Shown here: positions 44,401-64,000 of the stretch, in pieces | Layout of the letters: each line of letters opens with the position of its first letter | Position numbering within the stretch: the first letter of the stretch is position 1 | Assembly (NCBI GenBank): GCA_009761415.1 | Contig: QUOL01000014.1 | Location: 806,001 to 870,000, forward strand | Direction of reading: 5' to 3' | Length of the DNA: 64,000 nt | Source of the DNA: Sarcomyxa edulis | Taxonomy: Eukaryota; Basidiomycota; Agaricomycetes; Agaricales; Mycenaceae | Notes under the pieces: generated by a model | What the model was told of the DNA's origin: nothing | What the model saw: the letters and a program-made list of their open reading frames with translations, nothing else | Database searches by the model: none | Position numbers and translations under genes: made by a program

Positions 44401-46161
44401 ACGTACCATCAGCTACTTTTTGGGATAAGATGCGCCGCTTGAAGGACAAGGCGAGACAGCTCCCTATCGAGGAGGAATGGCTCGGTTGGCCACAGGAAGG
44501 GCTCCGTGAAGGTTGCACTTTGGTGAGGACACTGGAGGTGTGCGGAGTACAGGTGCCTCGGGGCTCTCTTGCGGCTGTTCAACGAAATGCGGCTAGCATT
44601 AAAGATGCGAACCGCGTGGTACCTAAACCTATAGTAGTGGTGGTAAACATTAATGGACACCCTGCTCGGGCGTTGGTAGACTCGGGCTCACTTGGTGATT
44701 TTATGTCTACGAGCTTGGCGGATCAGCTGAAGCTAGGACGTATTGTCTTACCTTCGCCGTTACCTCTTCAATTGGCAGTTCAGGGATCTAAAGGAAAAAT
44801 CAACTGTGGTGTGTTAGCCAAGTTCAAATATGGTCCTATCAATGAGGAACGTTACTTTGATGTTATCAATTTATCGAATTACGATGTAATACTAGGGACA
44901 CCGTGGTTGTTTCAGCATCAGGTCACGATGGCCTTCAATACATCACGACTGGTGGTGGGATGCTCGGTGTCAATGGCTATGAAGGGAGCGGCAGTTGCGA
45001 AGGTTGCCTCGCGTGCGATGGTGTTGTACCAGGACAATCTGGACAGTGCTCGCGCAATGTTGAGGGAGTACGCTGGGCCGCTGTGTCAGAAAGCGAGTGA
45101 TACGGAGCTGCCTCCATTGCGGGCTATAAATCATACTATACCTTTGATTGACGAGGCCATGATATATCCATGGCGTCCGTCTAGATGTCCTGAGGCACTA
45201 CGTGCTCTGTGGACTGAGAAGAAAGCGGCGTACTTAAAGTCGGGGCGATGGAAAGTCACGAGTGCGGGCAACACGGTGCCCATGTTGTTGATTCCTAAAC
45301 CTGCAAAAAATGGTGAGCCTGTTAAACTACGTACAGCGGTGGATTTACGAGCACGGAATCAGAATACTCACAAGTTAGCGTCGCCGCTTCCTGATATAGA
45401 GGGGATCTTGCGTCGAGCTGCGCGGGCACGCTATAGATCAATCATTGATGGTCAAGACGCTTACGAGCAAATTCGGATTGTACCTGAACATGTGCATAGA
45501 AGCACGGTGGCAACTCCTGATGGGAATATGGTGAGTGAAGTAATTCAGATCGGAGACTGTAATGCTCCGGCGACATACCAGGGACTGATGAATTTTCTGT
45601 TTTCAGGATTCATAGGCGTCTTCATGGATGTGTACCTGGATGACATTGTGGTATATTCGGAGACGTTAGCGGACCACATTAAACATATTAAACAGATTGT
45701 GGATATTTTGCGGAGGGAGCGACTTTACCTTAGCGAATCAAAACTACATTTTTTATGTTCAGAAATGAAGGTCCTGGGCCATGTTATCGACAGTGAGGGT
45801 ATCCGCATGGATCCGGATAAAGTTGACTCGGTGGTTGCATGGAAGACACCAACTAATCGTGACCTTTTACGTGGGTTTCTAGGCTCTGTTGGATATCTCG
45901 CAGATGATATCGACGGGGTTCGGGTACCTATGGGAATACTTCACGGGTTAACAGGGGACACGGTGCCATTTTGGTGGGATTTTACTCACCAACGTGCCTT
46001 CGAAGATATCAAACGGCTGACAGGGTTGGCTCGGGATAGACATCGCGTCCCGCTGGATTACAGCGTAGGACGTCTACCTGTTTTTATGATCACGGATGGG
46101 TGTAATACCGGGGTGGCTGGGGTGGTTAGCCAAGGCACTGACTGGAAATCAAGGCGGGTAG
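41414..46161 (+). mobile_element. Layer 0: Ty3/gypsy-type LTR retrotransposon, interrupted
   Basis: A TGG-starting primer-binding site candidate at 41414 (tggtgcttattc; its complement ends in CCA) precedes a long plus-strand ORF encoding Gag, protease and reverse transcriptase. The element is broken at 46161 by the LTR of layer 1. The rest of RNase H, the integrase and the 3' LTR would lie beyond the right edge of the window. The 5' LTR border is not resolved. Confidence 0.85.
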
Positions 46162-46166
46162 TGTAA
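41451..46166 (+). CDS. Gypsy Gag-protease-RT polyprotein, truncated by insertion
   Basis: Starting MSSSIPRYTLRSRAGNQAAV, the frame is open for 1,571 codons. The last codons (TAA at 46164-46166) come from the inserted LTR. In order: an acidic N-terminal region; a retrotransposon Gag domain (about residues 405-545, with RAFHRFVRESAQYLKAGHV and LEQFFLELFDYCFP); a CCHC zinc knuckle CFRCKEVGHISRNC near 662; an unusual 380-residue segment; an aspartic protease with active site ALVDSGSLGDF near 1073; and a reverse transcriptase (TAVDLRARNQN, catalytic YLDDIVVYS near 1396, LGHVIDSEGIRMD). RNase H begins at ITDGCNTGVAGVVSQG and is cut immediately. No internal stop or frameshift is seen before the insertion. 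Confidence 0.93.
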   Translation: MSSSIPRYTLRSRAGNQAAVGSQNQNGTSVSASHVRNSRLLGQTNGVAVVPTSDASLPMGDGADLRVPLPGSVDDESGDELDGGRVAEVADPLVVDSVVLEHQEDSSILTSVENEPDEIDESVGGLGAPPSNKPDSESERENIESEDEGEYPYLTAEQETAIRRAERGLSAGEKTRLAARIMAMLNAKTEGSGLSDQSQPSFASDDKLGVKIEEVDTEVQQVLLDEARGRKKWNPLASGAVTSIENLSSQADDGYFGPSLLSVGSDSKQDHYVFSDAPGPERGRESRKTNNVRVSSKELSATPGAGAPTFGGRRRQIAANSLPQGAEMRATSQVAPESFLGRVLRGLTGGNLGSDPSDNSNSDGSSSSDSDEAESGGWGDHRPHRAYNPYRKSKRGGRSRKKHQKCILKPIAPLAYSGSSDSRAFHRFVRESAQYLKAGHVPAMDRIMTLSHYLTDIAYDFYVQKVSMNESEWSLEQFFLELFDYCFPVNYRTIQRDKLRRSYQNDRKVSEYVHELEELANMIGLTDEREMVLKLWHGLRAGIQKGLWRDGYNPEVSDWRSVKNQALIIEIADGIPDPAVRQGKQNDQQKRVGQSVKPFSGRYERRETTYKSSDKPRDERPGTNGTNSLRTEKKGDTRGRTEKPARKELSEVEKSELSAAGKCFRCKEVGHISRNCPQGNTVRGTRSGGPPGMGSFNVEMDLEETERLRDLADNTADLHEISLSVMGFDNECADMDDISDMLVRDLDFPEGYYAFATSRPDINSWNPRFNREQIRYSGRFGALGDLPAQTAMQVLQFMMPYPGDHVLRYWSSESVDDKVTERFFVYAISDTEHVICDEVEDVEVRIQSNRLCDPLFRLPQWWAEKRAEELGITLEVETPWMLSPRMGNVWVDGAVAALQEGGYMYPFDETSDLDSRFIVDEIQKGEFCVYDLRVKLKARIPQGRLTEEHFELRRWWAAEIVSHCADLIDDVNYHIRGIEPDFVNVPSATFWDKMRRLKDKARQLPIEEEWLGWPQEGLREGCTLVRTLEVCGVQVPRGSLAAVQRNAASIKDANRVVPKPIVVVVNINGHPARALVDSGSLGDFMSTSLADQLKLGRIVLPSPLPLQLAVQGSKGKINCGVLAKFKYGPINEERYFDVINLSNYDVILGTPWLFQHQVTMAFNTSRLVVGCSVSMAMKGAAVAKVASRAMVLYQDNLDSARAMLREYAGPLCQKASDTELPPLRAINHTIPLIDEAMIYPWRPSRCPEALRALWTEKKAAYLKSGRWKVTSAGNTVPMLLIPKPAKNGEPVKLRTAVDLRARNQNTHKLASPLPDIEGILRRAARARYRSIIDGQDAYEQIRIVPEHVHRSTVATPDGNMVSEVIQIGDCNAPATYQGLMNFLFSGFIGVFMDVYLDDIVVYSETLADHIKHIKQIVDILRRERLYLSESKLHFLCSEMKVLGHVIDSEGIRMDPDKVDSVVAWKTPTNRDLLRGFLGSVGYLADDIDGVRVPMGILHGLTGDTVPFWWDFTHQRAFEDIKRLTGLARDRHRVPLDYSVGRLPVFMITDGCNTGVAGVVSQGTDWKSRRVV

Positions 46167-46607
46167 CGACCCTGGGAACGGGGCGAGACAATTATTGATT
46201 CCTTTTCGTTCAATGAGCTGGCGAGTCGGAAGAGCGTAGAATGGTGTACTCCGTTGAGTACTGAGAGTCGATCAGATAAGAAGAGATAAGATGATTGCGG
46301 ATGCCAGGTAGGATTATACACCTCCTGGCAGACGCAGAATATAGATCAAAGTAGCCCCAAGCCCGCTGGCACACTCTATCACTTAAGATGAGATGCCAAA
46401 GGCTTATTGGGGTGTTTGTTTGATGTAGTAAGAAGATGATATTCCATGAAGTACCGAGAGGTGGTAACTACAGCTTGTGATCCAAATAACTGTAAACAAC
46501 TCTGTCACTTCAAGAATATGGAACGAAAAATGTAGGTAAGCCTAGCCAATGCTAGGAACTGAAGAGTAAGTATATAGTAGTAGGGTATGTGCCCGTAACC
46601 CGTTACA
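46162..46607 (-). repeat. Layer 1 3' LTR (446 bp)
   Basis: It runs from TGTAACGACC to CCGTTACA in plus-strand order, with inverted TGTAAC/GTTACA ends. Over the 421 bases available it matches the copy at 63580-64000 with only a small local difference (gaagagtaag here, gaaggataag there). It supplies the stop codon that ends the gypsy ORF. Confidence 0.92.
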
Positions 46608-46786: not shown

Positions 46787-47176
46787 TCACGGTTGTTCCA
46801 AGGCTCCGCATCGCTCCGCTTTCCACTCCAAGCTCCAACTCTCCATCTTCCACCGGACGAGCACGGTGTAAGAGAAGCCTTGTAGCCTACCTCTAGCTCT
46901 TGGCAGAGATATGACGGGGGATCTGAATTGAGAACCACTCAAGGGATCTCTTCCGTAAACTGCCCAGTATCCTCTTTGAATGTCTATCTTCCGCAGGCTC
47001 CATAGAATAGTCCTTCGTCCTCTGAAGGGGGGTGATATACCTATACCCCCCTTGCCCCCCAGCAAAAAAGTTCGAGAAATTCCGCTGCTATGGAGTAGGG
47101 GATTGAAGTGAGAAAGGGATGTAGTAGCGCCCCCCACTCCCGACAATACAGCATAACTTATCAGCTGGGTTGACGG
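46787..47176 (-). pseudogene. Layer 1 second ORF, 3' part (split by layer 2)
   Basis: Minus-strand coding sequence from the layer 2 border to the TGA at 46787 (about 129 codons, starting PSTQLISYAVLSG and ending RCGALEQP). It is in the same frame as the ORF that enters layer 2 from the other side at 58899. Taking out layer 2 and one ACGG copy makes a single open frame. It contains a Gly-rich part and many aromatic residues, and no family is recognised. Confidence 0.6.
47173..47176. repeat. Target-site duplication ACGG, left copy
   Basis: ACGG directly precedes the TGTGAGG start of the layer 2 LTR. The same four bases follow its last CATCACA at 58899-58902. The in-frame repair of the host ORF when one copy is removed supports this duplication. 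Confidence 0.7.
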
Positions 47177-48924
47177 TGTGAGGATGCCAGCATCCCCAGC
47201 CAAGGAATCGACAACTATACAACGACCTACTCTTATGCGACTCCCCAGACATAGCTAACTACAGAGATACTGGTGATATTACCACAAACGACTTACTTTT
47301 CGAATGACCGGACACTGAAAGACACCAAGTACCCACTACTTGACGGTTCCTCCCCGAAAGCGGCCTCTTCATCCACTCACGAAATGCTAACCCGCCTTCG
47401 GTCACGTCTCAGAACGTTTCGGAATACTTGAAATCACACACGAACAACTTCTCCGAAGGAAATCTACCGCCAGAACCCAATTCCCTATCGTCGTTTCACC
47501 TGACCGAAGGCCCAACGTACTCGATCACCTCTCCGCAGCCCCCTAGATCCTTCGGACAGATCCCAAATCGTTTCAGCAGGTTCCCTTTCGCCTCTAGAAG
47601 ACCTCATCGAGAGATACTTTACCGACAAAACATTGCCACCAGTCGACATACCGCCAACGTGATGCTTGCTGCCCTGAGCTGTTCTTCCTATCAAATCGGA
47701 CATATTCCCTTTACATTGCGATCTCAATTCACACCTTTCCATGCATCTGGACGCCTCGTTAAGACCTCCGTCCACCCTGACCAAGTGGTGCTACGGAATA
47801 TTCTTCCCTCTGTGTTTATCACATGACACAGCACTTGTAAGCGAGGTATCGCCCGCTAACAAAGGCACTACAGGTCTCCGCCTAGCAACCCACATCAAAT
47901 TCACTCTTCTCGGACAACTTTGGCCGTCGCATCTTGGAAAAATCTATCGGAAGCTCCCCATCATCCTGCTCACTCGGACATGTTTCATCCCTTCGCAAAT
48001 TCACCTTGCAACGCTTTCAGAAAACACCTCAGGCCCTAACCTTTCACACTGAGCGAGGTTCGGACACATCAAAACCAATACCGGATCTGTTTCATCATTG
48101 GAGATCTCGGGGACCTTGGGATGGCACTCGGGGTGAAGAATTAGGCAAGGACAGGGAAGGAATTCATATATAAAGTAGGATAGGACATGGAGAACGGTAG
48201 ATAGAACCAGTGTGGACGAGAACCAGAGGAACATACCCGAATCGACCAACTACCCAGTCACTCTCTATAGGAATTCTATCTCTTTCTCATACTTCTGAAA
48301 CCGAGACAAGGAACGATTACAGGAGTCGGTCAAAACAAGAGAAAAAGGACTTGATTCAGTCGGCAGTACCACTCCCGGAACAAAGGAAGCTCCCCGAAAT
48401 CAGTCCAGAGCTGTCCGAAACCCTCGAAGCTCTCCGAAATCAGTTCAGAGCTGTCCGAAACCTTCGATAGCTCTCCAAAGACGTTTTACAGCTATACAAA
48501 GCATCGGTCAGCTCACCAAAAGCTGTCCGAGGCCCTCGTAGGTTCTCCAAGAACGAACTTATAGCTGTCCGAAGCCCTCGATAGCTCTCCGAAGACGTTT
48601 TATAAGCCGTCCAAAGCATCGATCAGCTCTCCGAAAGCTGTCCGAGGCCTTCGTAGGTTTTCCAAGAACGAACCTATAGCTGTCCGAAGCCTCTAAACGG
48701 CCTACCGAGAACGAACCTACAAGTCCGAAGCTTACCTTACACCTCATCATCTCATACCCACCTCACCACCGTTTTACGGACACATTATCCAAACACAAGT
48801 CACTGGGCATTAGGATTTCTCACTACGTAAAATCCCCTCCGAGAAAACGTCACCTTACCCCCTAGAGGCGAACTATAGTTAGGAGTCTAGCACATCTACT
48901 CCTAGCACCGCAGTCCTCATCACA
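47177..48924 (+). repeat. Layer 2 5' LTR (1,748 bp)
   Basis: It begins TGTGAGGATGCC and ends CCTCATCACA. It is repeated at 57151-58898 at a constant offset of 9,974. All open frames inside the two copies translate identically. ORFs up to 132 codons occur in it but are not supported as genes. Its 3' third carries a minisatellite. Confidence 0.95.
48389..48692 (+). repeat. Minisatellite within layer 2 5' LTR
   Basis: Two 40-bp units (48389 and 48429; gctctccgaaatcagt type) are followed by two 114-bp units (from 48465 and 48579) that start cgatagctctcc and contain gacgtttta and agctgtccgagg. All share the submotif agctgtccga. The unit borders are approximate. Confidence 0.8.
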
Positions 48925-48950
48925 ACTGGAGCCCACCGCGAGGGATTTGG
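48925..48950 (+). other. Primer-binding-site candidate of layer 2
   Basis: Two bases after the 5' LTR the sequence tggagcccaccgcgagg begins with TGG, so its complement ends in CCA as a tRNA 3' end does. I cannot identify the tRNA. Confidence 0.5.
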
Positions 48951-49301
48951 ACTAAAATAAATCCTCTTCACAGGCTTTCCGAACGCCGCAATTATCCATC
49001 CATTATCCGAAAAACGACCCCCCCCCCCAAAGGAATCGCTCCATCCGAATCATCGTTACTATCGGATATATCATCAATAAAATCTCGATTGATTTCCATT
49101 CCAGACGTTTCCTTCCAAACATAGACATCACGCATAAAAGAATTACTTCTCAACCCTATCCACAAAAAGGCCACTCCCGACGACTATATTAAGACAAGAT
49201 ATACGTCTCTCGGAGTCCAAAATAAAGAAACAAATCGTGGATTATTCTCTTATAATATTACATAGGAAACGAAAATATTACTTCCGAACCGAACAACTAT
49301 T
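48951..49301. other. Non-coding stretch of layer 2 after the primer site
   Basis: About 350 bases without a supported gene, including a run of C at 49020-49029. It lies downstream of gene F and may hold its 3' untranslated region. Confidence 0.35.
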
Positions 49302-51055
49302 TTACGTGGAATCGGCCTGCTCCTCCTCAAAAATAAAACCGTATTGACCTTCAACTTGCAAAATGGCGGCATCGATAACGCCCGACAATTGATCACGGAT
49401 AACGGGGGCCAGCTTACCAAAAACCTCGACGCCAGCAGCACCGTCAAGTATCCCAACCTTCAATCCGTCGACCACTGACTTCCATTTTTCTCGACGACCT
49501 GCGACCCGTTGACTCTGAGGAACGGACGAGGGATTGATCGAAGAAGGTTCAGGAGCACCGAATGGCTCAACAATACCCGTGTCATCGAAATCTTCGGACC
49601 GACCCGTGGGTCCTTGCTGAAGGATGGTCCTACGGGTTTCGGGCATGTGCATCTCGCCGAAAGAGATTGGAGTTTCGAGGAAGGCACCGCTGGACGCTGG
49701 CTCTGCAGCATAACGATCACCGACGAGCTTGGGTACTACAAAAGACAGCGGTAAAATCAAGGAAAACACGACCCTTAAGGAAAATTGAAAACACACCACG
49801 AATTTTCAAAGGCGCCGACCGAGATCCCTCGACATCGATCGGTGAAACTTCACGAGCTTTTCCCTTTCCTTTGTCCCTCAAAGGCATTTCCTGCCGCCTA
49901 GCTGAAGGACCGGGAAGACTGTCGGAGGTTTCGGATACGGGAGCAACCTTCTTTGGGGCGATAACGATTTCCCCCAGCTCGATGGCGCGGGTGAGATCGA
50001 GAAGACCCTCGTCCTCGTGGATATCGCAGCCGGTCCTCCGAGCGAAGCATCTGTCGCAGGCATGACTACGATGCCCATTACAAGTAACGTTGTGCTTGAT
50101 ACACCTGCTACAACGCCAGTCCTATAAAAACGGGAAATTTAGAGCTAGAAAGAAGAAGGGAAGAGAAGAATGTACCAGGTGACGGATAAGATAAGGCTGC
50201 TGGGCCTTGAGGATACGACCCGCTCTTTTCGAAGAAATACCCGGGGGTTTTTTGATGGGGACCGCGCGAGTCGCTGAAGAAGGAAGGACGACAGGCTTGA
50301 TACGAAGACGGACGATGTCCGCGTCAAACTCGTCCCTTGCGCGTTTAACTCCCCGAGGATGCTTGATTCTTACCTCAGGGGATGGAACATCTCCCTCTGA
50401 ACTCTCGGGATTAACGATGCTCGAAGTACCGGCGGTCACAGGGGGTAGGTCTGCTGCGCGAATGGTGGCAGCACTACTGAAATCAACGTCCACGTCTTCG
50501 GCTGGAAGAAAGGAATCGGAACCGATGAGTAGAAAGCAAGGAGGGACCAGGGACGAACTCACCAAGCTCATCGATTTCATCCTCGGACAAGTTTGGGAAA
50601 TGAGATGTTCCCAGTATTTCTTCGAAACTACCGTACCATGGAACGGGAGTCTCCTCCTTTGTGGGAAGAAAGAGGGGAGTGTGGCGAGGAGGCAAGTTAT
50701 ACTCGAGGGCCTCTAGGAAGAAATCAGGAACGACGACGAGCTGGCGGACGAAGTTAATAATATCGTCATCGAGAGTAGGAAAATCGTCGAAAGCTGGGGG
50801 GAAAGGGGGCGTCCACCCGATGTGTAGGAATGCCACACAGGCTGAATGGAGCTCCTCGCGACTTCTAGCGGTCACTGGTCGGAGTTCTTCGATCAAACCG
50901 TATCCCGAACCAGGAATCCTTCGCGACGATTTCATAGAAGCCATAACCTGCGTTGGGACCCTTGTTGTAGGTAAACCACCGGATAGCGCAAGGTTGAAAG
51001 CCTCGGAAAACGTGAAATCAGGAGCGGCCAGGGGCGCAGACGATGGCAACGACAT
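49302..51055 (-). CDS. Layer 2 gene F: protein with Zn(II)2Cys6-like cluster
   Basis: Four exons (51055-50563, 50501-50176, 50121-49800, 49735-49302) join in phase to give 524 residues; an in-frame ATG at 51184 is an alternative start. The first exon encodes an uncharacterised domain (FTFSEAFNLALSGGLPTTR, LHSACVAFLHIGWTPPFPP, DDFPTLDDDIINFVRQL). Exon 2 has basic, nuclear-signal-like parts (HPRGVKRARDE). Exon 3 starts DWRCSRCIKHNVTCNGHRSH and continues ACDRCFARRTGCDIH. Its six Cys are spaced 2-6-7-2-6, which fits the Zn(II)2Cys6 consensus. Exon 4 is helical and acidic (GKLAPVIRDQLSGVIDAAIL). It may bind nucleic acid. No retroviral domain is seen. It is the last gene of the antisense array. Confidence 0.72.
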
Positions 51056-51184
51056 TGGGATGATCTTCAGAAGAAATGGGGGAGGTGATCGAGGCGCGTT
51101 TGGTGTTGGAAAGATGGTGGGCAGAGGGCGAGAGAGATTTGATCGATAAAGTTCGAAAGTGATTCCATACCTCGGCGATCTCAT

Positions 51185-51871
51185 TTCGGGTATCTCCAGG
51201 CACGTGTCGATCTAATCGCGCTTCGTATCTCGCGACGGCGCCAAACAAAGGGGAAGCCGATGCCAAACATCCACTGGTAACCGAAGGATTGGACAGCCTA
51301 AAGGAGATCGAGCTCGATCACATCGAAGAACGAAGAAAGTTGAGACCGGAGAACGACAAACGAGGAGATAAAAACCGTCGGAGCGAGCATATCCAGGCGA
51401 ACAAGCACGATTGGAAATTAAATAACGGAAGTCATCGAACACAAAAGTTAAGGGTTAAACGGTACCCAGGAAGTCAATAAGAAGAACGAACGATTAAAGC
51501 AAGCACGAAACGGACAAGTTTGCGCCATGGGAGTCATAAACCCATAACGGATAGAGAGCGACGGCTCTCCTGTACACAGTGACGAAATACTGCGAAAAGA
51601 CACGGACGACAAACGATCGAAAGAAATTGGAAGAAAAACGACTATGCGGGGCTCGGAGACGGTAGATCTGGCTGGCCAGCGGATCTACCGACGCAGACCG
51701 AACCCAATTATGCGCTGATATGATAAAAGTATGCAACTCACGACGTTTTACAGATTTACAAGGAGACCGAGACGCTGGGTCTCACACTATGCAAAATTAT
51801 GAACGAATTATGCGCCTGTTATCAGGCATTTATTTTACAAGAGACAGGGAATCGGAAACTCATCGGACGGT
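51185..51871. other. Spacer between layer 2 genes E and F
   Basis: About 690 bases with only short ORFs. It presumably holds the promoter of gene F (minus strand) and the end of gene E. Confidence 0.35.
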
Positions 51872-52807
51872 CTACAGAATGGTAGTATCAGGTACCGCTC
51901 CAGCTCCTCGACGATTAGCCCTTGCCCCTCCGCGACCTCTCCCACGCGTCGCAGCGTTCCGAGGATCTACCTGTCCGAAAGCTCCGGGGCCGAAATGAAC
52001 TTGGTGGAGGCCTCCGAGACGAGGATCGGGAACGTCTCCGTGAAGACGGACCTCTTCAAAGCCCTCTTTCACGGGAAACCTCGCGACGAAGGGGACAAGA
52101 GGATATTGAGGAGCAGGAAGAATAGGATTGGGAACGAAAGCCGCCCGCAATCTGAGCAGGTCGTTAACTTGCTGCTGCTTCATTTCGGGAAGCACGCCGT
52201 ACACGTTGTACGCATCGGACGACTCAAATCCATCGAAATCCAGAGCAGTTCCGACGTATCCGACCTAGAAAAAGACGAAAAGAAATAAATCAACGAAGAA
52301 TGAGAACCAAGAAATATGTAAAACGCGCCTGGGCAACCATCTCGCTCTTCACCGACGATAAAAGATACCCGACGTTCCTAACGTTGACCGCAACATAGTC
52401 CCCCTCGAAACCAAAGTTCTTCAGGAAGAACTCGAGCATGGCGACGGTAGTGGTGGCTTGAGCGGGAATTGGAATGGTATCCCAAGAGCCTGATTTAATG
52501 GCCTCGGAGGCTCGGAGTTTCATAGCTTGATGCTGGACGGACGATGTTGAAAGAGGAACGATGAAGGAAAAACAAGCGAGCCGCTTACTACGTAATTGAC
52601 GATCCGGGTGAGGAGGGTCCTGACCCAGAGCCTTTCCTCGAGAGGAACGTCCGTCGGACACCTCCCATTAACGGAGAGATGAACGATGCCTAGGAGGCTA
52701 CGAATTGACCGAGACCAGATGGTGGTCGGAGACCTCTCATTTTCGAGGTCGGGATCCTGGGGATTTTCGGGAAAGCGATTTGCAGACAAACGGAGAATAA
52801 AGGACAT
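51872..52807 (-). CDS. Layer 2 gene E: array paralogue with RG-rich tail
   Basis: Exons 52807-52589, 52532-52329 and 52264-51872 give 271 residues. The middle (VAMLEFFLKNFGFEGDYVAV, then NVGYLLSSVKSEMVAQ) aligns with gene D (VGLVADFIFRELGPDGYFVA, YYCNAQIVLLLA). The second intron falls at the same point and phase as in genes A-D. That intron seems to be GC-AG (52328-52265), because only this join keeps the frame. The tail ends RGRGRGGARANRRGAG, a typical RGG-type nucleic-acid-binding tail not seen in the other paralogues. No known family is recognised. Confidence 0.68.
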
Positions 52808-52908
52808 CGTTGATGGAACTTTACTGACTTAAGGATCAGAGCAAACAATTCGGGGAGGTTTATATATGCAGACTACAATAAGTGGCATATGATTCTGGGA
52901 GCGTTACT

Positions 52909-53627
52909 TTACTCCGTCGTTTCCTCCTCCGACCCTGGCCAGTCCTCTGCGTCGCTATATCCTGCACCTTCGGACTCCCCCTCGACTACGACAACGCGCT
53001 TAGGTACGACCCTTTCGAGGAGATCGACACGGATCAATCTGGTCATCGCGCTTTCCAACGCGGCAACCCCGGGCTTCTCGTACTCCGGCCAATCGAAGGC
53101 ATCTTCAGCCGACGCGTAAGCTGCCAGGGCGCGTATGCTAAGCTCGGTAAGAGCTCGGACGGCTTCGACCTCCCAATGAATGGGGCTGGCTGGCTGAATT
53201 CGGACAGCCCGACAAATCAAGCGCAAATGGCTGATCGTTCTATTCATCTCGGACGGAATCATGTATAAACGCCTGTCCTGCTTGTTTAGCTCCTGCCACT
53301 GGCTGTGGAAGTGGACCTGTTACCGATCAAGTGAAAACCCGTCAAACGATGAAATCAATAAGGGTCGAGTTTAGACCAACGTACCGCGAGGAGCAACACG
53401 ATTTGCGCATTGCAGTAGTAGGGAACCCTCTCGCGACCAGTTAAAGCTACAAAGTAGCCATCAGGCCCGAGTTCACGGAATATAAAATCGGCAACGAGGC
53501 CGACAGCGGGGCGCAGGAGGCACCTGAGATAGTGAATCATTCCGTCACGATCGAGGATATCGAACGTTGCTGCCTCTTGGGCAAGAGTGTTCAAAAGGAC
53601 TTGGTGTAGGGGTTCCATAATTTTCAT
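52909..53627 (-). CDS. Layer 2 gene D: array paralogue
   Basis: Exons 53627-53385 and 53316-52909 join in phase 0 to give 216 residues. The start MKIMEPLHQVLLNTLAQEAA is followed by the family core MIHYLRCLLRPAVGLVADFI and, after the intron, MIPSEMNRTISHLRLICRAV. The C-terminus is acidic (YSDAEDWPGSEEETTE). It resembles genes B and C in having an I/VPSE helix and a late EFPE/EYPE/WPEYE motif. Function is unknown. Confidence 0.68.
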
Positions 53628-53712
53628 GGGCTCTGCGGTGACCTGTACGGAGGAATTGATTCACCCTCTTTATACTAAAAATATCGCGCTATTCAGCTAT
53701 TGGACACCCCTT

Positions 53713-54308
53713 CTACTTGCCCGTACCCTCCCCTGCCAACCGTATCACGAACTCCGGAAATTCCACGGCAACTGCCTCTCGGTGCATTACAGGGACGATA
53801 GACCAAAGGAACTCCTTCGTTAAATCCTTCCTCTTCACAAGTACATCTTCATCGTACCCGAGCTCAACTCCGTGATGGATAAGGAATAGCTGCACCATGC
53901 TTGCGAGGCGCAACGCTTCTGACGGAACCACGGCCTCGTCTCCTCGGCCAATTGCCGTCACTCTATCCCTAAACCGTAGAATGGCATCCTAGAAGACGTA
54001 AGGTTAACACTCCGAAGCTCACCGAGTGAAACACGGACGCCTACCAAATGATCCAACACGATGCGGAACCAGCCTTTCGTCTCGCTCCATATGATTGGTT
54101 CAACAGTGTCTCTTGGGGAACTCGTTATAAGATAAGCCGCGTACCCCCGCTCGACGATCTCCACCATAGGGCGGAGGCGGAATCGAAGGAAGTTTGTAAA
54201 GCCCTCGGTAGGAGCGAAATCCCCGGCAAGAACTTCAGGAGGATGAGCGTACGACAAAAACTCGTCTCGGAGAGCTTGAGTAAACGATGAACTAACGACA
54301 TGCGACAT
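53713..54308 (-). CDS. Layer 2 gene C: array paralogue
   Basis: Exons 54308-54045 and 53988-53713 give 179 residues. The start is MSHVVSSSFTQALRDEFLSY. The core FTNFLRFRLRPMVEIVERGY matches the FLRxxLRPMV pattern of A and D. After the phase-0 intron, DAILRFRDRVTAIGRGDEAV and VPSEALRLASMVQLFLIHHG align with B (ELIVAYRQRARTDANAAEF, IPSEVSRMMEFSLIVYDKVG). It ends VEFPEFVIRLAGEGTGK. No known domain is recognised. Confidence 0.72.
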
Positions 54309-55370
54309 TTTGGCTGGAATAACGATGGCTATCCTGCGCCAGCTGGCGTTCTTTATACCTCATCGGACTTAGGACTGACGTCTCGGACCGATAAGAGGTG
54401 TCCGAACGGACTCCGTGCAGCCACTGTTAGCCGTTGGATTTTCCGGACCGTGCCTTATCAGAAGCAGTAAAGACGCCTGTTCTTCGGTATAGATGCTCAC
54501 GGAACGATTGCGAATGCCACATGCAAAAGAACACGAGCTGGCCGCCACGTCGCGCCGCTACCCTGGGACCATCTTTTCGACTATTGTCGCAGGTCCTTGC
54601 CTCACCTGATACACTTCGCCGTGTCTCGTTCCTTCGCAAAGATTTCGCAAGATCGCGGTCACATCACCCGCACACGTATTAACACGCACAGTCTCAACTG
54701 CGCCGTAAGAACAACGACGATCAGGACGCAAGCCACCTCGATCTAAACGGCCATGACTTCATGAAGCCACTGGCGCTTGACGGCTGTCGGCTTTGAGCGC
54801 TGTAGAAATGCAACTGCATCATCTTGAAGAAGAGAACAGCATCTTGCGCCGGCCGAGTTATTGAACGGGACGAGAAGATCATCCTGACATCGTATAACGG
54901 CGAGGCTACGGAAGAACGAAATGATGACCAGGCCACTGAGCGATATAGCGAAATTGTAAAGGAGAAAAGCTCTGAAAGCATTGATAACCTCTCTCCGTTC
55001 TCATCTCGCTCGCCTCCCTTCTGAACTTTCCTCTCATCAAGAGCCGCTGACGGAGTTACGAACTGTCCGCGATTCAAATGTCTGCGCACAGCGGGTGGAA
55101 TCATCGGACATCGATACCCTTTGTAAAGGAGGTTGGGCGGCTGCCCGAGACCGTTGTTGCCCTCCGGACTGACAGTGCATTCCATAAACTACAAGATCTC
55201 TGATCACGGCACGCGAAAGGAGTGTTTACCCATTAAAGTACCAACGACGACAAAAACCCCCTCGGTCACATCCAGGAAAGCTTCCCCGCTACGCGTGCGT
55301 TCTGAAATGCGAATTTCCGACTATTAGTATCCCTCTGAGGGGCCCAAAGAACGAGACCGACGGCGCCTGC
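54309..55370. other. Long spacer in layer 2, no supported gene
   Basis: About 1 kb between genes C and B. Opposing ORFs of 60-150 codons overlap here (minus 54721-55185, plus 54824-55024) and neither resembles the array family. It might hold a degenerate array member or a promoter. Confidence 0.35.
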
Positions 55371-55957
55371 TTACCAGAACACCAGGTCCTCAAATTCGGG
55401 ATACTCCTTTGCCCCGCCAGTCAATGAAGCGTTAACGTCGGCCTCATCTTTTAGTGACTGAAGCATTTCCCTCCTCTGACCGACGCTGCTGAGGGCCCAG
55501 TCCCCATGAAATCCGACCTTGTCATAAACGATAAGACTAAACTCCATCATACGGGATACCTCTGAAGGAATTTTAAATTCGGCGGCGTTGGCATCGGTCC
55601 TGGCCCGCTGACGGTATGCAACGATGAGTTCCTGCGCAGAAGGATTTTTTTTAGTATCTCTGCGTTGCCCCGCTGAAAAACGGTGGAAGCCCGTACAACG
55701 TTCTCGACGAAAAACCGCATAAGCCGCCTCGACAGCGTATACTGCCCGATAACGCTATCGGTGTCATCGGGAAATGCTGTCACCCTATGGGGAAGCGTCG
55801 CCTGGATGACACCGAACATCATACGAAGGCGTTTGCGGAAGAATCCATCGAAGCCCTCGTGCGGATAGAAGACGGGTCGAATAAAGGATGGGACGTTCAG
55901 CGTCATGAAGTAGTCGCAGAGCCTCTCGCGAGCCATTTGCATACTGCGGGCAGGCAT
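55371..55957 (-). CDS. Layer 2 gene B: array paralogue
   Basis: Exons 55957-55697 and 55631-55371 (both 87 codons) give 173 residues. The start is MPARSMQMARERLCDYFMTL. The core FDGFFRKRLRMMFGVIQATL matches the family, and so does the part after the 65-nt phase-0 intron: ELIVAYRQRARTDANAAEF, IPSEVSRMMEFSLIVYDKVG and a final EYPEFEDLVFW. Without splicing the frame would run into an unrelated tail, so homology to gene C supports the intron. Function is unknown. Confidence 0.7.
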
Positions 55958-56052
55958 TTCGATTTTCAACACGAAAGGACTCGTCGTTTATATGTACATG
56001 ATGACTGCATGCCCTCGATCACCTCTCCGAACCCTTCCCTCTTCTTGCCGCC

Positions 56053-56991
56053 TCATGCCCCCGACAAATTGTTTAGTCCCTGTTCGATAATCGCCGCCCC
56101 GCCAATCAAACCGTTCCTCTCCTCTTCGGATAACGTCTCCAAAAGCAGGCGAAATGCCCCGTGTGTTGCCAAGCTCGCGAGTGGCTGGACTGTACCTCTC
56201 CGATCAGCTCGCTGCCGCACCGCTAAAGTGTCAGAACTCTTACCGGACAAGGCCCTTTCTACCTCGGCCACCTCCATTTCTTCGTCCTCGTCGTCCGTTG
56301 CAATACTTATGACGGATATGCCTTCGTCTTCGTTGTTAGCCGGATTCTCTTCTCCTTCGAGGCCGTTGCCCCTGTCCGTACTAATCGTACCATCTCGATG
56401 TACCCTGGGACCGCTGTATGGATGCTTCTTCAACACGGCATGTGCATGGAACCGACCACGCGGGTCCGCCTCGATGTAATCGAAAGCAACGCCAAATGTC
56501 GATCGGCGGGCATATTCTTCTATGAAGTACAAGATAACGTCGATCTTATGTGCCTCGTCCTCGTCCTGATTCCCGGAAAACCCTACGACGTGGACACATC
56601 GCTGCACCTGGTAAACGGCGGTCACTGCTTCCTTGGGAAACGGCTCCGTGGTATCGTCCATGCACCTCCCCTTCAGTACCCATCTAAGTCTGAGCATGAA
56701 TACCTTAACCTTCGCAATTAGCACGGACCCCCTGAAAGGCGCACACGCACTCACCATGTGCTGGCACAAGATTTTAACGTGCTTTCTCAACGTGTATACA
56801 CCGTGACTCGAGAACTCCGGAAGGAGAACGTCCGCCACTGCATCCTGAAAAATGCAGCTAACAACTAGGTGAACCATGGGACGGATATTGTTACGCAGGT
56901 ATCCGAGGAAAGTTGCCATCGTAATATCGCCATCTATCCCGTCTAGATCGAGGCAGCGCGTAAAGAAGAGTTCTTTTGCTATGGGATCCAT
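56053..56991 (-). CDS. Layer 2 gene A: array paralogue with extended C-terminus
   Basis: Exons 56991-56755 and 56709-56053 give 297 residues. The start is MDPIAKELFFTRCLDLDGI. The core FLGYLRNNIRPMVHLVVSCI is the family motif. The 45-nt intron (GTGAGT, with a GCTAATT branch) is a multiple of three and has no stop, so read-through is also possible, but its place matches the phase-0 intron of the other copies. A longer C-terminal part follows (KIDVILYFIEEYARRSTFGV), then an acidic segment DDEDEEMEVAEVERALSG. It is the first gene of the antisense array, next to the right LTR. Confidence 0.7.
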   Translation of the reverse strand: MDPIAKELFFTRCLDLDGIDGDITMATFLGYLRNNIRPMVHLVVSCIFQDAVADVLLPEFSSHGVYTLRKHVKILCQHMVSACAPFRGSVLIAKVKVFMLRLRWVLKGRCMDDTTEPFPKEAVTAVYQVQRCVHVVGFSGNQDEDEAHKIDVILYFIEEYARRSTFGVAFDYIEADPRGRFHAHAVLKKHPYSGPRVHRDGTISTDRGNGLEGEENPANNEDEGISVISIATDDEDEEMEVAEVERALSGKSSDTLAVRQRADRRGTVQPLASLATHGAFRLLLETLSEEERNGLIGGAAIIEQGLNNLSGA

Positions 56992-57131
56992 TTGGCTTGT
57001 TGCTTTCAGGAAAGCTCTGGCTGTCTTCACCTTGGGATTTATAGGTCCTCGGCCGGTCGTCCTTGCCCTGTTTTGGTCGTGGACACGTTGTTGTGTTTGC
57101 CCTCCGGATGATCGACCGGGGACGGTCGATA

Positions 57132-57150
57132 TTTAAAAGTTAGGAGGAAG
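57132..57150 (+). other. Polypurine tract of layer 2
   Basis: The purine-rich aaaagttaggaggaag ends immediately before the TGTGAGG start of the right LTR. This is the expected place of the plus-strand primer and sets the element's orientation as plus. Confidence 0.65.
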
Positions 57151-58898
57151 TGTGAGGATGCCAGCATCCCCAGCCAAGGAATCGACAACTATACAACGAC
57201 CTACTCTTATGCGACTCCCCAGACATAGCTAACTACAGAGATACTGGTGATATTACCACAAACGACTTACTTTTCGAATGACCGGACACTGAAAGACACC
57301 AAGTACCCACTACTTGACGGTTCCTCCCCGAAAGCGGCCTCTTCATCCACTCACGAAATGCTAACCCGCCTTCGGTCACGTCTCAGAACGTTTCGGAATA
57401 CTTGAAATCACACACGAACAACTTCTCCGAAGGAAATCTACCGCCAGAACCCAATTCCCTATCGTCGTTTCACCTGACCGAAGGCCCAACGTACTCGATC
57501 ACCTCTCCGCAGCCCCCTAGATCCTTCGGACAGATCCCAAATCGTTTCAGCAGGTTCCCTTTCGCCTCTAGAAGACCTCATCGAGAGATACTTTACCGAC
57601 AAAACATTGCCACCAGTCGACATACCGCCAACGTGATGCTTGCTGCCCTGAGCTGTTCTTCCTATCAAATCGGACATATTCCCTTTACATTGCGATCTCA
57701 ATTCACACCTTTCCATGCATCTGGACGCCTCGTTAAGACCTCCGTCCACCCTGACCAAGTGGTGCTACGGAATATTCTTCCCTCTGTGTTTATCACATGA
57801 CACAGCACTTGTAAGCGAGGTATCGCCCGCTAACAAAGGCACTACAGGTCTCCGCCTAGCAACCCACATCAAATTCACTCTTCTCGGACAACTTTGGCCG
57901 TCGCATCTTGGAAAAATCTATCGGAAGCTCCCCATCATCCTGCTCACTCGGACATGTTTCATCCCTTCGCAAATTCACCTTGCAACGCTTTCAGAAAACA
58001 CCTCAGGCCCTAACCTTTCACACTGAGCGAGGTTCGGACACATCAAAACCAATACCGGATCTGTTTCATCATTGGAGATCTCGGGGACCTTGGGATGGCA
58101 CTCGGGGTGAAGAATTAGGCAAGGACAGGGAAGGAATTCATATATAAAGTAGGATAGGACATGGAGAACGGTAGATAGAACCAGTGTGGACGAGAACCAG
58201 AGGAACATACCCGAATCGACCAACTACCCAGTCACTCTCTATAGGAATTCTATCTCTTTCTCATACTTCTGAAACCGAGACAAGGAACGATTACAGGAGT
58301 CGGTCAAAACAAGAGAAAAAGGACTTGATTCAGTCGGCAGTACCACTCCCGGAACAAAGGAAGCTCCCCGAAATCAGTCCAGAGCTGTCCGAAACCCTCG
58401 AAGCTCTCCGAAATCAGTTCAGAGCTGTCCGAAACCTTCGATAGCTCTCCAAAGACGTTTTACAGCTATACAAAGCATCGGTCAGCTCACCAAAAGCTGT
58501 CCGAGGCCCTCGTAGGTTCTCCAAGAACGAACTTATAGCTGTCCGAAGCCCTCGATAGCTCTCCGAAGACGTTTTATAAGCCGTCCAAAGCATCGATCAG
58601 CTCTCCGAAAGCTGTCCGAGGCCTTCGTAGGTTTTCCAAGAACGAACCTATAGCTGTCCGAAGCCTCTAAACGGCCTACCGAGAACGAACCTACAAGTCC
58701 GAAGCTTACCTTACACCTCATCATCTCATACCCACCTCACCACCGTTTTACGGACACATTATCCAAACACAAGTCACTGGGCATTAGGATTTCTCACTAC
58801 GTAAAATCCCCTCCGAGAAAACGTCACCTTACCCCCTAGAGGCGAACTATAGTTAGGAGTCTAGCACATCTACTCCTAGCACCGCAGTCCTCATCACA
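57151..58898 (+). repeat. Layer 2 3' LTR (1,748 bp)
   Basis: Second copy of the sequence at 47177-48924, with the same length and no difference in the translated frames I compared. Its end CATCACA is followed by ACGG, the right copy of the target-site duplication (58899-58902). Confidence 0.95.
58363..58666 (+). repeat. Minisatellite within layer 2 3' LTR
   Basis: Second copy of the 40-bp and 114-bp unit array described for the 5' LTR, at the same relative place. Confidence 0.8.
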
Positions 58899-59589
58899 AC
58901 GGGAGTGCCCATATACCATCCATGAGCGGTAGTAACACCGTACACATAGCACAAAGCAGGAGGAAGTGCGACCGGTCAATAGATCCAAGATCGAGTTCCG
59001 TAAAGAGATGAGGGAGAAGCGTTAGGGCCACGTGTCCATCTCCAGCACCATCAAACCCGTTTAGCGCTTTGTGTACTCCGCCGTTCCAATCAGCGCAAGA
59101 GACCAATGAGAATGAAGGGGAAGGTCCAGGATTGAGGAGAGGAGGCACACTCGTTGAGGATGGCGATAGAAGGGACGAGAAGCTCAATGAATGAATAAAT
59201 GGAGGAGGTCCCGGGTCGAGTAAAAGCGGTCGAAGTCCTCGATTCGCTGAACAAAGACGGCGCTCGACATCCTGGAGACGACGAGATACTAATTCATTTG
59301 CCGTAAGACCGTCACCATCATATATCACTAGTGCTGAACTCTGGACCCCGTGCACACTCCTTTCTAAATCCCCAATTAGGTCCCATTTCTCCAACACGCT
59401 CAAAGGCGGCGTGACAAGATTCTGAGTTCGAACAGTTTGCGATGACAGTGGCCGCCTCAAGACATCGACAACGATCCGAGCAAAGTCCACATAGGTAAGC
59501 AAAAGGTAACGCACTAAGAACAGATTGAGAACAGAAAGGCGCCCAGACGCTGGACGTTGAACGATGGACGACAATGCGACTGTTGGCAC
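58899..59589 (-). pseudogene. Layer 1 second ORF, 5' part (split by layer 2)
   Basis: It opens MPTVALSSIVQRPASGRLSV and runs to the layer 2 border (GIWALP). There it would continue into 47176-46787 if layer 2 were absent. It repeats modules of the large upstream ORF: LLLDPGPPPF, PPLLNPGPSPSF and a DWNGGVHKALNGFDGAGDG segment. It is interrupted, so it is not functional here. Function is unknown. Confidence 0.6.
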
Positions 59590-59679: not shown

Positions 59680-62600
59680 TCAAAAGCCCCGCATTGGATC
59701 GAGGAGAGGCAGTTGAAGTGGGAGCAGGAGGGGCAAACCAGCGATTGAAGAATCGAACTCCTGCTCGACTAGTATAGGGCCTCGGGAAGAGGCTTTGCTC
59801 AATCTATATATATTCTCCCTGTTATGAGAACCCACTAATTCCCATCTGTTGTCAGTCTTTTCCTTCCGACCATAGTCTACATCCAGTTTCTCGAGACAAC
59901 GCGCCCTTGGTGGTTCCGAGAGCTGGTAAGCTCGAACAAACGACGACGACATTCTAGATGGCCCAAATTTGAGAAGCTGGGCCCTCAGCGCGTTGTCTAG
60001 TTGGTTATCCGGAAAAGACGCGGCATGTCCACGAACCGGGGCAAATCGGTTATCCGCACATGCTGCATCGTTCGCATCACGAACGCAGAAGCGACCGTGG
60101 GGCCTTGAAGGGAAAAACGAGTTCAGTTCAAATCTACCCACCGAATTCCCTTTGCCCCTATCGTAATATGACAGGGCGCCTTGCATCGCGAGATAATGGT
60201 TTCGATTGTGGCTGGTCCGTGAAGTCTTCGTCCTCGATTGAAAACTACAGCGCGTGCGAAATATGGAGTCAATGTGTGTCTCAGATTCGCATCCGTCGAC
60301 TAGCGACCATCTTGAGCCAGATTGGGGGGATCGCGAGCCGAACAAGGTCGCAAATACCGTATGACTGTCACCGCAAGGACTAGACCGAGTATTGTAACTC
60401 GTTACTTCGTTGACGTAGTCTCCTTTGACTCGGTAACGTAGAAGAAAAGGAGATAGGTCGACGTTGTTTGTACGTAGGAACGTCGAGATGCCGAGACCTA
60501 CGACTGCATGGGGAGTCTTGCTCTTTGGAGGCAATCGAGACGAAGGATTGGATGGAAGAATCGAAAGAGAGAGAGAGCCTAAGCTTGGGTAACGACGATG
60601 CAAGACGACTAACGATCCCCGTTCAAACCGTTCTTGCCCGACGTTTTGCCGCGCGGAACGTTGCGAGTCCGATAGAATCGAGAGTTTGGAGAATGGGAGA
60701 GCTGGGGAAGGACAGTTATCTGGTCCCGGATCGAGGAGAGGCGGCCTATGACAATTTTCCTTAGAATGAGAACCTCGAACAGCCAACGACGACTTTCTAA
60801 ATGGATCGATCCCGAGAGCCTGTGCACTCAGAGCGTTGCCTAGTCGGTATTCCGGAAAAGACGCGGCGTGCCCACGAGCAGGGGCGAGTCGGTTATCCGG
60901 AAACACTATCCTGCTCGCTTTAAGGACCTGAGGGGTAGGACTGGTCTGGGACGAGAAGTAACAGCGATACGAAGGAATCGCGCATGGATGGGATGAAGAG
61001 AAGGAACTTGGTAGGGGTAGACGAAGGAGAGTGGAAGTGGAGTGAGAGACTCGAAGTCCACCATACGCAAAGCTGGGATAGCGCTCGTCGGCGAGAAAGC
61101 GACTGAATCGTACCTTACTCACCGGGTGTCCATCTCCACCATCATCTAGCCCATCTAACACTTCCTGCATCTCTGCTTTCCAATCAGCAGTTGAGGCCAT
61201 CTCCTCGAAATCCAGCGTCCGCGAAACGTTAATGATGTGATCAAGGGGAAGATTCCGGGAAGTTGGATGACGTCGATAAGAGGGTACGGTGAACACAAAG
61301 GGTGGACGAGCGGTGTCACTCGGTCCTGGGTCGAATAGTGGAGGTAGATGACGTGACGTAAGGTCCCGCGCTCGAACGATTATCGTCGATGCTTCCAGTG
61401 ACTTCAGAACGTTGTTAATGCTGATTGAAGTGTGAAATCCGCCTAATCGAGACAAATCGACGGCGAATAAGATAGATGTATAGGAACAGGAGGTAGGCCC
61501 TGATATTGATCTTGTTGCAGGTAAATCCAACGAATTTGAGTAGAGTAAGGTCGACGAGAGTGAGTTCGGAGATGGACGAGATGGAGAGGAGCTTGGTACA
61601 AGTAGACGGTGGGAGGTGGAGACGAGACGAGAGGCTCGAAGCCCCCAATTTGCAAGACCGACACGACACTCAACGACGTCGAGACCGCCAAATCGTAACT
61701 TACTCACCGGGTACCCGTCTCCATCGTCACATAGCCCATCTAATGCTTCGCATGTCTCTCTCCTCCCACCCTTGGCTGAATCTGCCATCAACGTCCACGA
61801 AACGTCAACGAGATAGCCAGAAGGACCATCCCGAGAATTTGGATTAGGTCGATAGAAGGGAACGGCGAACGAAAGGAGTGGAAGGGGAATAAGACTCGTC
61901 CGCGAGGCGTATACCGCAGTGGGTGGCCCGAGATCGAGGAGAGGAGGAGGGGACACCGTAGACAAGCGCGTGATCTCGACCAAGTTCAGCTCAAGATTGC
62001 TCACCGAATTCCCTTCGCCCCTATTGTAAAATCCCACTAAATCTAATTTATCAGACTTGTCACTCAGAGGATTGCACGCTAAGTCTTGTTTCTCCAATCC
62101 CCGCGAACACGACGAACTCGACTGCGCGGTAGGAGCAAGTACGCCGAGCTGATGTAACATGAAGACTCGATTATCTGGCAAATCCGTCCAACGTTCGGAA
62201 AAAGGAGGAGGTCGTGGCAAACTCGAAGCTACCCACGTCGATGTTTTCCCAAGCTTCCCAGTATCAAAAGTAGTTTCTCCCTCAATGTTGTATCCACTCG
62301 GTTGATTTTGATTGTGGTTCCAGTTGAGGAATTCGAGTAGAATCGGTGCTTCACCCAGTCGGTTATCCGGAAAGGGCTCAGCTTGTCCACGAACAGGTTC
62401 AGGTCGGTTATCCGGAAGTGAAGCACTGCTCGCTGTAAGGACCCGATTGATGTCAGACGAGGAGAGATCTGCTAGAAGAAGAGAATTGCGAGGTAGCAAT
62501 TCCGGCAAAGGGCGAGGAAATGATATCGGCCCAGGATCGAGAAGAGGTGGTAATGCTGTCAAGCAGGAGACTTCAAGAGAATCTCTATCCGAGCGCCTAC

Positions 62601-63579: not shown

Positions 63580-64000
63580 TGTAACGACCCTGGGAACGGG
63601 GCGAGACAATTATTGATTCCTTTTCGTTCAATGAGCTGGCGAGTCGGAAGAGCGTAGAATGGTGTACTCCGTTGAGTACTGAGAGTCGATCAGATAAGAA
63701 GAGATAAGATGATTGCGGATGCCAGGTAGGATTATACACCTCCTGGCAGACGCAGAATATAGATCAAAGTAGCCCCAAGCCCGCTGGCACACTCTATCAC
63801 TTAAGATGAGATGCCAAAGGCTTATTGGGGTGTTTGTTTGATGTAGTAAGAAGATGATATTCCATGAAGTACCGAGAGGTGGTAACTACAGCTTGTGATC
63901 CAAATAACTGTAAACAACTCTGTCACTTCAAGAATATGGAACGAAAAATGTAGGTAAGCCTAGCCAATGCTAGGAACTGAAGGATAAGTATATAGTAGTA
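63580..64000 (-). repeat. Layer 1 5' LTR, cut by window edge
   Basis: The first 421 bases (plus-strand order) of the same LTR as 46162-46607. About 25 bases remain outside the window. Confidence 0.92.

Follow-up and report, generated by a model that had tools for sequence, protein, structure and literature searches.

The stretch of DNA analysed here (the window: 64,000 nucleotides of the basidiomycete Sarcomyxa edulis, contig QUOL01000014.1, positions 806,001 to 870,000) contains, from position 47177 to 58898, a long terminal repeat (LTR) element in whose 8.2-kb interior (48925-57150) six spliced genes are predicted on the minus strand, opposite to the transcript of the element itself. From right to left, these genes follow the order g1, g2, g3, g4, g5 and g6, and their coordinates are collected in Table 1 with those of the element. 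The LTRs, primer-site candidate, polypurine tract and target duplication claimed by the initial annotation were all confirmed at exact coordinates, and the primer was identified as tRNA-Lys. The two LTRs are equal at 1,748/1,748 bases, and the 18-nt primer binding site can pair along its whole length with the CCA-tailed tRNA-Lys 3' end. A genome pattern search for that CCA-tailed tRNA-Lys end gave 6 places, compared to 0 in the reversed control, and 3/4 fetched places were called by ARAGORN as tRNA-Lys genes with introns of 30-36 nt when introns were allowed, 0/4 being called as tRNA when they were not. An unoccupied paralogous site (C4:286402-286586), with 85% identity to the joined flanks and a match that extends 28 bases beyond the junction, supports the insertion of the window element. 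Direct LTRs with TG..CA ends, a target site duplication (TSD), the primer site and the polypurine tract, together with copies dispersed at independent sites, identify it as an LTR retrotransposon.

The window copy is non-autonomous, as gag-pol is not encoded in its interior. No match to the gag and pol proteins of the family (described below) was detected there by tblastn with E up to 1, and the gag-pol DNA matches the window interior only in its first 24 bases, which are the primer site. Stop-to-stop frames are present on both strands of the interior, those of the plus strand reaching 274 aa, and none of the 12 minus-strand and 7 plus-strand frames reached the Pfam cut-off.

Table 1. Coordinates in the window of the LTR element, its predicted antisense genes and their candidate promoter motifs.
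Feature	Position	Strand	Details
TSD ACGG, left copy	47173..47176		
5' LTR	47177..48924	+	1,748 bp, TGTGAGG...TCATCACA, ends TG...CA
Primer binding site TGGAGCCCACCGCGAGGG	48927..48944	+	18 nt, starts 2 nt inside of the 5' LTR
g6	49302..51055	-	4 exons (51055-50563, 50501-50176, 50121-49797, 49735-49302), 525 aa
g5	51872..52807	-	3 exons (52807-52589, 52532-52329, 52264-51872), 271 aa
g4	52909..53618	-	2 exons (53618-53385, 53316-52909), 213 aa
g3	53713..54308	-	2 exons (54308-54045, 53988-53713), 179 aa
Spacer g2-g3	54309..55370		1,062 bp, no conserved ORF
g2	55371..55957	-	2 exons (55957-55697, 55631-55371), 173 aa; paralogue of g3
g1	56053..56991	-	294 aa with 54-nt intron (56243-56190); 312 aa if unspliced
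TATA boxes of g2, g3, g4, g5	starts 55992, 54357, 53674, 52864/52866	-	
TATA box of g1	57038..57043	-	
Polypurine tract AGGAGGAAG	57142..57150	+	directly adjoins the 3' LTR
3' LTR	57151..58898	+	1,748 bp
TSD ACGG, right copy	58899..58902		

The gene models are backed by 19-21 copies for g1-g5 and by 11 copies for g6, and this comparison bears out the prediction of at least six spliced genes opposite to the element transcript. The start codon of g6 is uncertain, 51184 being possible besides 51055. The predicted introns of the window are 54-68 nt long and have GT-AG ends across copies, with two exceptions: the second intron of g5 (52265-52328), modelled as GC-AG in 21/21 copies, and the first intron of g6 in copy L014, with GC in place of GT. 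The introns of g6 vary between copies (53-70 nt) and the protein frame stays open. The similarity of relatives from other assemblies stops where the donors of g1 and g5 intron 1 are predicted: homology of g1 to sequence P0001 ends at the g1 donor, the g5 exon boundaries are echoed by P0002-P0004, and one fragment starts at g5 exon 3. Two other candidates were rejected, a short g1 intron after codon 79, the removal of which would shift the frame, and a 154-155-aa open reading frame (ORF; 54721-55188) in the g2-g3 spacer, missing from the other 18 copies examined. The length of this spacer is near-constant (1060-1066 bp in 19 copies).

When the array proteins were compared among themselves with phmmer (five-sequence database), g2 and g3 were clearly related (E 1.3e-11) and g2 and g5 fairly so (E 1.8e-4), the homology of g1 and g4 to other array genes being only suggestive. 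In their alignment, g5 intron 1 and the introns of g2, g3 and g4 fall at about one shared position. Thus, g1-g5 may constitute one divergent gene family.

The distribution of the element was analysed in the genome (35.6 Mb, 40 contigs) through searches with the LTR (91 candidates, 40 scored), the interior (best 21 of 37 candidates scored, giving 21 interior copies), pol (best 36 of 175 scored) and g3 (all 78 scored), the LTRs being read at the fetched copies. All 40 scored LTR candidates matched at 97-100%. Twelve of the 21 interior copies (the window, L010-L018, L028 and L029) match the window interior including its left part, the eleven other than the window at 89-95%, although L018 lacks the left end and L028 and L029 the right end; the remaining 9/21 match the right 5.6 kb only, at 97-98%. 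The possibility that the window copy was a one-off was therefore rejected by the further copies found in the LTR, interior and g3 searches. Perfect 4-bp TSDs (ACGG, GCGC, GCGT, ACGC) flank 9/10 copies read at both outer ends, and two further copies were readable at one end only. All the TSDs read have the form RCGN, indicating a preference for integration at 4-bp sites with CG in the middle. Letter-by-letter comparison of the LTR pairs at five loci revealed 0/1748 differences in the window, 1/1749 in C2, 1/1748 in C12 and 0/1499 compared bases in both C13 and C1. Copies inserted elsewhere that carry these antisense genes and introns, which the initial annotation had named as the evidence to look for, were thus found, and the array is present at 31 loci in total (31 with g3, 31 with g5). 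The element family inserts as a unit.

Two forms of the element were distinguished by their left arms, which are deeply different and contain either gag-pol and a distant g6 or a window-type g6 alone. Among the 31 g3 loci, 15 have a complete exon 1 of the window-type g6 and 15 a distant g6, whose exon 1 shows 37-39% identity to that of the window; the remaining locus (C11:3014) is cut by the contig end, and two further g6 pieces without exon 1 were detected (C11:668883, C40:1118518). In the copies with window-type g6 that were read, gag-pol is missing. A pol gene adjoins 14/15 distant-g6 loci, always oriented against the array, being broken or partial at the C8 and C22 loci; for the fifteenth (C34:23582), no pol was found among the matches listed. 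A pol at the end of contig C17 is accompanied by a g6 piece. The gag-pol form is represented by a 17.5-kb element (C1:2004806-2022287, TSD GCGT) with sense gag (878-aa frame) and pol (1,280-aa frame), followed by an antisense g6 relative, by g5-g1 and by the LTR. The copy of C13 has the same layout and is interrupted by a different Gypsy element (G000:C13:460478-467180), with a frame of >2,000 aa and identical 277-bp end repeats. Both gag-pol copies have the identical primer site after the LTR. In the C13 copy, Pfam matches were obtained for a protease near the gag end and, in the pol ORF, for RNase H (residues 536-664) and the integrase zinc domain (839-894); reverse transcriptase (RT) gave no Pfam match in this pol, and its place before RNase H is inferred. 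Therefore, the description as an LTR element without gag-pol holds for the window copy but not for the class, which also exists with sense gag-pol.

Remnants of the gag region were detected in copies of the gag-pol-less form: L015 (1401-1573) retains the first 173 bp at 95% identity, and weak traces are present in L016, L017, L028 and L029. These remnants suggest a former presence of gag in the gag-pol-less form, and that of L015 may be a trace of the origin of the form or of exchange.

From these data, we consider it likely that the window element was inserted recently and is the gag-pol-less form of a fungal LTR family of Ty3/Gypsy type that usually carries a six-gene, intron-bearing antisense cargo. 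According to the mechanism proposed, each array gene would have a TATA promoter of its own and be transcribed in the direction opposite to the element. In the genomic RNA, read in sense, the splice signals would not be recognised, so that the introns would survive reverse transcription, and the gag-pol-less form would be mobilised in trans by the Gag-Pol of its partner. The promoter motifs are consistent with such a scheme. The coding strand of the interior holds six TATAWA matches at five places, as two of them overlap, and each place lies 35-59 nt ahead of the start codon of a different gene among g1-g5, a placement with a chance probability of about 5e-6 (simple binomial). TATAAA is kept in 19/19 copies for g1 and g2, and in 21/21 for g3-g5.

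The antisense argument for intron survival, already put forward in the initial annotation, also fits the data from a second family, in which 8 loci (C2, C4, C9, C12, C16 twice, C23 and C34) contain relatives of g1-g5 with order and strand preserved; a g5 at the contig end of C5:1.09 Mb is a probable ninth. Protein identity between the two families is 38-39% for g1, 33-39% for g2, 27-40% by exon for g3, 33-38% for g4 and 39-59% for g5. At 6/8 loci, a family-2 pol, 73-86% identical to that of family 1, was found ~5-28 kb from the array, oriented against it and on the side expected, and another lies ~5 kb from the C5:1.09 Mb piece, again on the opposite strand; for the arrays at C9 and C16:6-11 kb, no family-2 pol was found among the matches listed. 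The g3 intron donor lies at the homologous codon in family 2, with an acceptor uncertain by 3 nt, and the matches of g2 and g4 break at the same residues, so that the three introns occupy homologous places in deeply diverged families. A TATAAAA is located 58 nt before the ATG of the one family-2 g3 locus analysed. Exons 1 and 2 of g5 form one open frame in family 2, and g5 intron 1 was thus either lost in this family or gained in family 1.

These comparisons bear on whether host genes were recently captured by one LTR element through transduction and are merely carried. The introns of the array are host-like and no known viral or retroelement domains were found in its Pfam searches, as such a capture would predict, but the matches of g1-g5 in this genome, grouped by identity, fall into the two families plus the C5:1.09 Mb piece, with no third, host-like group. 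In addition, the presence of the same ordered genes in family 2 at 27-59% identity implies that any capture would be ancient. Thus, a recent capture appears very unlikely.

To analyse selection, intactness was counted after splicing in the copies with at least 90% of each gene. All copies were intact for g2 (19/19), for g3, g4 and g5 (21/21 each) and for g6 (11/11), and the g1 frame was open in 16/19. Mean pairwise dN/dS was 0.084 for g1, 0.009 for g2, 0.083 for g3, 0.174 for g4, 0.094 for g5 and 0.148 for g6, and the three codon positions differed on average by 0.0052 (first), 0.0044 (second) and 0.0359 (third), compared to 0.0232 in introns (19 copies). Chance frames were ruled out as an explanation of the array ORFs by dN/dS and the intact frames. 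For g1-g5, dN/dS was 0.084 in 10 gag-pol-less copies versus 0.082 in 9 other-arm copies, of which 7 adjoin pol, L023 has a distant g6 and no pol among the matches listed, and L021 is cut by the contig end. Therefore, purifying selection preserves intact array genes in the gag-pol-less form and in the gag-pol form alike.

Such selection makes it extremely improbable that the array acts through an antisense RNA that regulates the element, its ORFs being incidental, even though the main text of PMC7264820 discusses the regulation of other LTR elements by antisense transcripts. The excess of third-position changes, the intact frames of g2-g6, the respected intron boundaries and the homology in family 2 all argue against this possibility, and dN/dS refutes it as the sole explanation; an antisense RNA may nevertheless act in addition. 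The strength of purifying selection and the maintenance of the genes in copies without gag-pol could also be expected from a domesticated or host-beneficial cassette, selected at the level of the host with the LTR copies as a by-product. However, 31 dispersed loci, perfect TSDs in 9/10 copies and only 0-1 differences between LTRs in five pairs indicate ongoing spread, decayed copies exist and the array is present in two families, making a host-level cassette quite unlikely.

The relationship between the two forms of the element was further analysed through the shared 5.6 kb. A tree of this region interleaves both forms, with the pairs L011/L023, L018/L019, L013/L022 and L012/L024 grouped with support of 0.985-1.0. 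Among the gag-pol-less copies, diversity falls from 0.13-0.21 to 0.008-0.029 near position 51,400, close to where the homology to the gag-pol form begins. The interleaved tree and the drop in diversity indicate that the right arm (g1-g5) has been exchanged while the left arms remained distinct. The exchange could proceed by template switching in mixed particles or by gene conversion.

The dS was 0.58 for g6 versus 0.035-0.062 for g1-g5. When g6 was analysed in windows of 50 codons (8 of its 11 copies, each representing a group of similar ones), dN/dS was 0.02-0.34 throughout, with 0.02 in the window that contains five of its six cysteines. A tentative possibility is a two-partner system, in which a gag-pol element coexists with a long-lived gag-pol-less partner that has its own diversified and selected g6, the two sharing an exchangeable array arm; the partner would not be a mere decaying deletion copy, and the array may serve as a specificity or control module by which the two partners regulate one another or the host. 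The much greater divergence of the g6 variants, and the lower identity of g1-g5 between the families (27-59%) compared to that of pol (73-86%), could also fit another selfish payload, such as a killer/antidote or superinfection-exclusion module with g6 as its diversifying partner. Nevertheless, purifying rather than positive selection was found in every 50-codon window of g6 and Pfam showed nothing toxin-like, so we regard a module of that kind as unlikely.

In the Pfam searches, g4 was matched to iSirtuin, but only at E 0.02 and 14.8 bits (cut-off 27). The protein g6 has the cysteine pattern C-x2-C-x6-C-x7-C-x2-C-x6-C, with the spacing of fungal binuclear zinc clusters; as a Zn2Cys6 regulator it fits by cysteine spacing only, as the Pfam Zn_clus score was 13.0 bits (cut-off 21), and a protein search with g6 gave no match at E 0.01. 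The TRP28 domain (PF04195), which marks the antisense ORF of the Retand lineage, was detected neither in spliced g2-g6 (E up to 10) nor in the antisense ORFs including g1 (E up to 1). Searches with g1 and with a g1-g5 profile found four fragments only, from other assemblies, and a scan of viral contigs with g1 and pol revealed no relative. The array proteins could be regulators or accessory factors for the element, and g6 perhaps binds nucleic acid via its cysteine cluster.

Several observations weigh against the interpretation of the window element as a gag-pol-less insertion of a family with a functional antisense cargo. No array protein matched Pfam above the cut-off, and the structure models of g1 and of g6 exon 1 (pLDDT 39.8 and 42.4) were too poor for a fold search, so that the function assigned to the array rests on position, selection and the cysteine pattern. 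Transcription, splicing and promoters of the array genes are predictions from the sequence; in this respect, the opposite strand of the interior also holds four TATAWA, and g6 lacks a TATAWA within 150 nt of its modelled start. The single open frame of g5 exons 1 and 2 in family 2 implies that the introns are not absolutely stable. The g1 frame is shifted in L014, L016 and L017, decay is seen in the arrays of C25 and C12:2.61 Mb, and the TSD pair of the C3 copy is mismatched at the fourth base. Truncated family-1 pol sequences are present at C16:13048 and C16:55260 with no family-1 array listed nearby. Regarding exchange, L011/L023 and L018/L019 each lie on one contig, which makes local gene conversion possible over template switching. 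Finally, exchange with gag-pol copies could account in part for the low dN/dS that gag-pol-less copies show in g1-g5; g6 alone argues independently.

Large LTR elements without gag-pol, thought to be mobilised in trans and with non-coding interiors, are known as LARDs (large retrotransposon derivatives). The window element is also large, devoid of gag-pol and flanked by LTRs, but its interior is densely coding and selected, as judged by dN/dS and the frames. Among antisense genes, HBZ is spliced. It is described in the main text of PMC11963269 as an antisense accessory gene of a deltaretrovirus, and thus offers a parallel for an antisense protein in the cycle of a reverse-transcribing element, although HBZ is one gene and no homology is claimed. 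Closer in layout are the plant Ty3/Gypsy elements Retand, Grande and RIRE2, with antisense extra ORFs between pol and the 3' LTR (PMC7264820, PMC11963269). As described in those texts, the antisense coding region is located there in most copies, some copies are non-autonomous and a nuclear or DNA-binding role has been suggested, in common with the present family; in contrast, the fungal array comprises six genes, of which two or more are paralogues, with a TATA box for each of g1-g5. The word "intron" does not occur in the main texts of these two papers. In fungi, an antisense gene, brtn, of the Boty-like elements of Botrytis cinerea is named in a title (Zhao et al. 2011) in the reference list of PMC8365987, and Boty is mentioned in PMC7264820; by these descriptions, Boty resembles the present family in being an LTR element of a fungus that carries extra antisense coding sequence, but this is one gene according to the title compared to six spliced genes here. 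The consulted text of PMC5408684 deals with extra ORFs of rotifer elements, contains "intron" 0 times and uses "antisense" once, for small RNAs.

Among the open-licence PMC papers listed by literature searches, no title or abstract start described a multi-gene, intron-bearing antisense array. The initial annotation, which mentioned antisense ORFs of some plant LTR elements, could not match such an array to a described class; antisense extra ORFs as such are already described in plants and in Boty. The novelty lies in a multi-gene, intron-bearing and selected antisense array on two alternative left arms, single antisense genes being already known. These data suggest that an LTR retrotransposon can keep a whole set of spliced genes by antisense placement, avoiding the usual loss of introns on retrotransposition, and provide a case of gag-pol-less elements with genes that are selected instead of decaying. 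Also, the role of antisense genes in LTR elements, left open in the main texts of the plant papers (PMC7264820, PMC11963269), becomes testable, since the present system allows comparison among six genes, between two arm types and between two diverged families.

Regarding the surroundings of the element, another Gypsy-type frame with zinc knuckle, protease and RT occupies 41430-46166 (+) of the window, and a direct repeat of 421 bp (46162-46582 and 63580-64000, 99.5%) reaches the window end; these repeats are probably the LTRs of a further element around the nested region. On the minus strand, 59680-63609 contains a 1,309-aa open frame with no Pfam match at E 0.1 and with short DNA repeats. A second gag-pol-less copy (G000:C6:870123-881830, TSD GCGT) lies inverted ~5 kb to the right of the window element. 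At G000:C38:359989-379704, the order LTR-interior-LTR-interior-LTR was found, with a common middle LTR and a truncated second interior, an arrangement that is likely a product of recombination.

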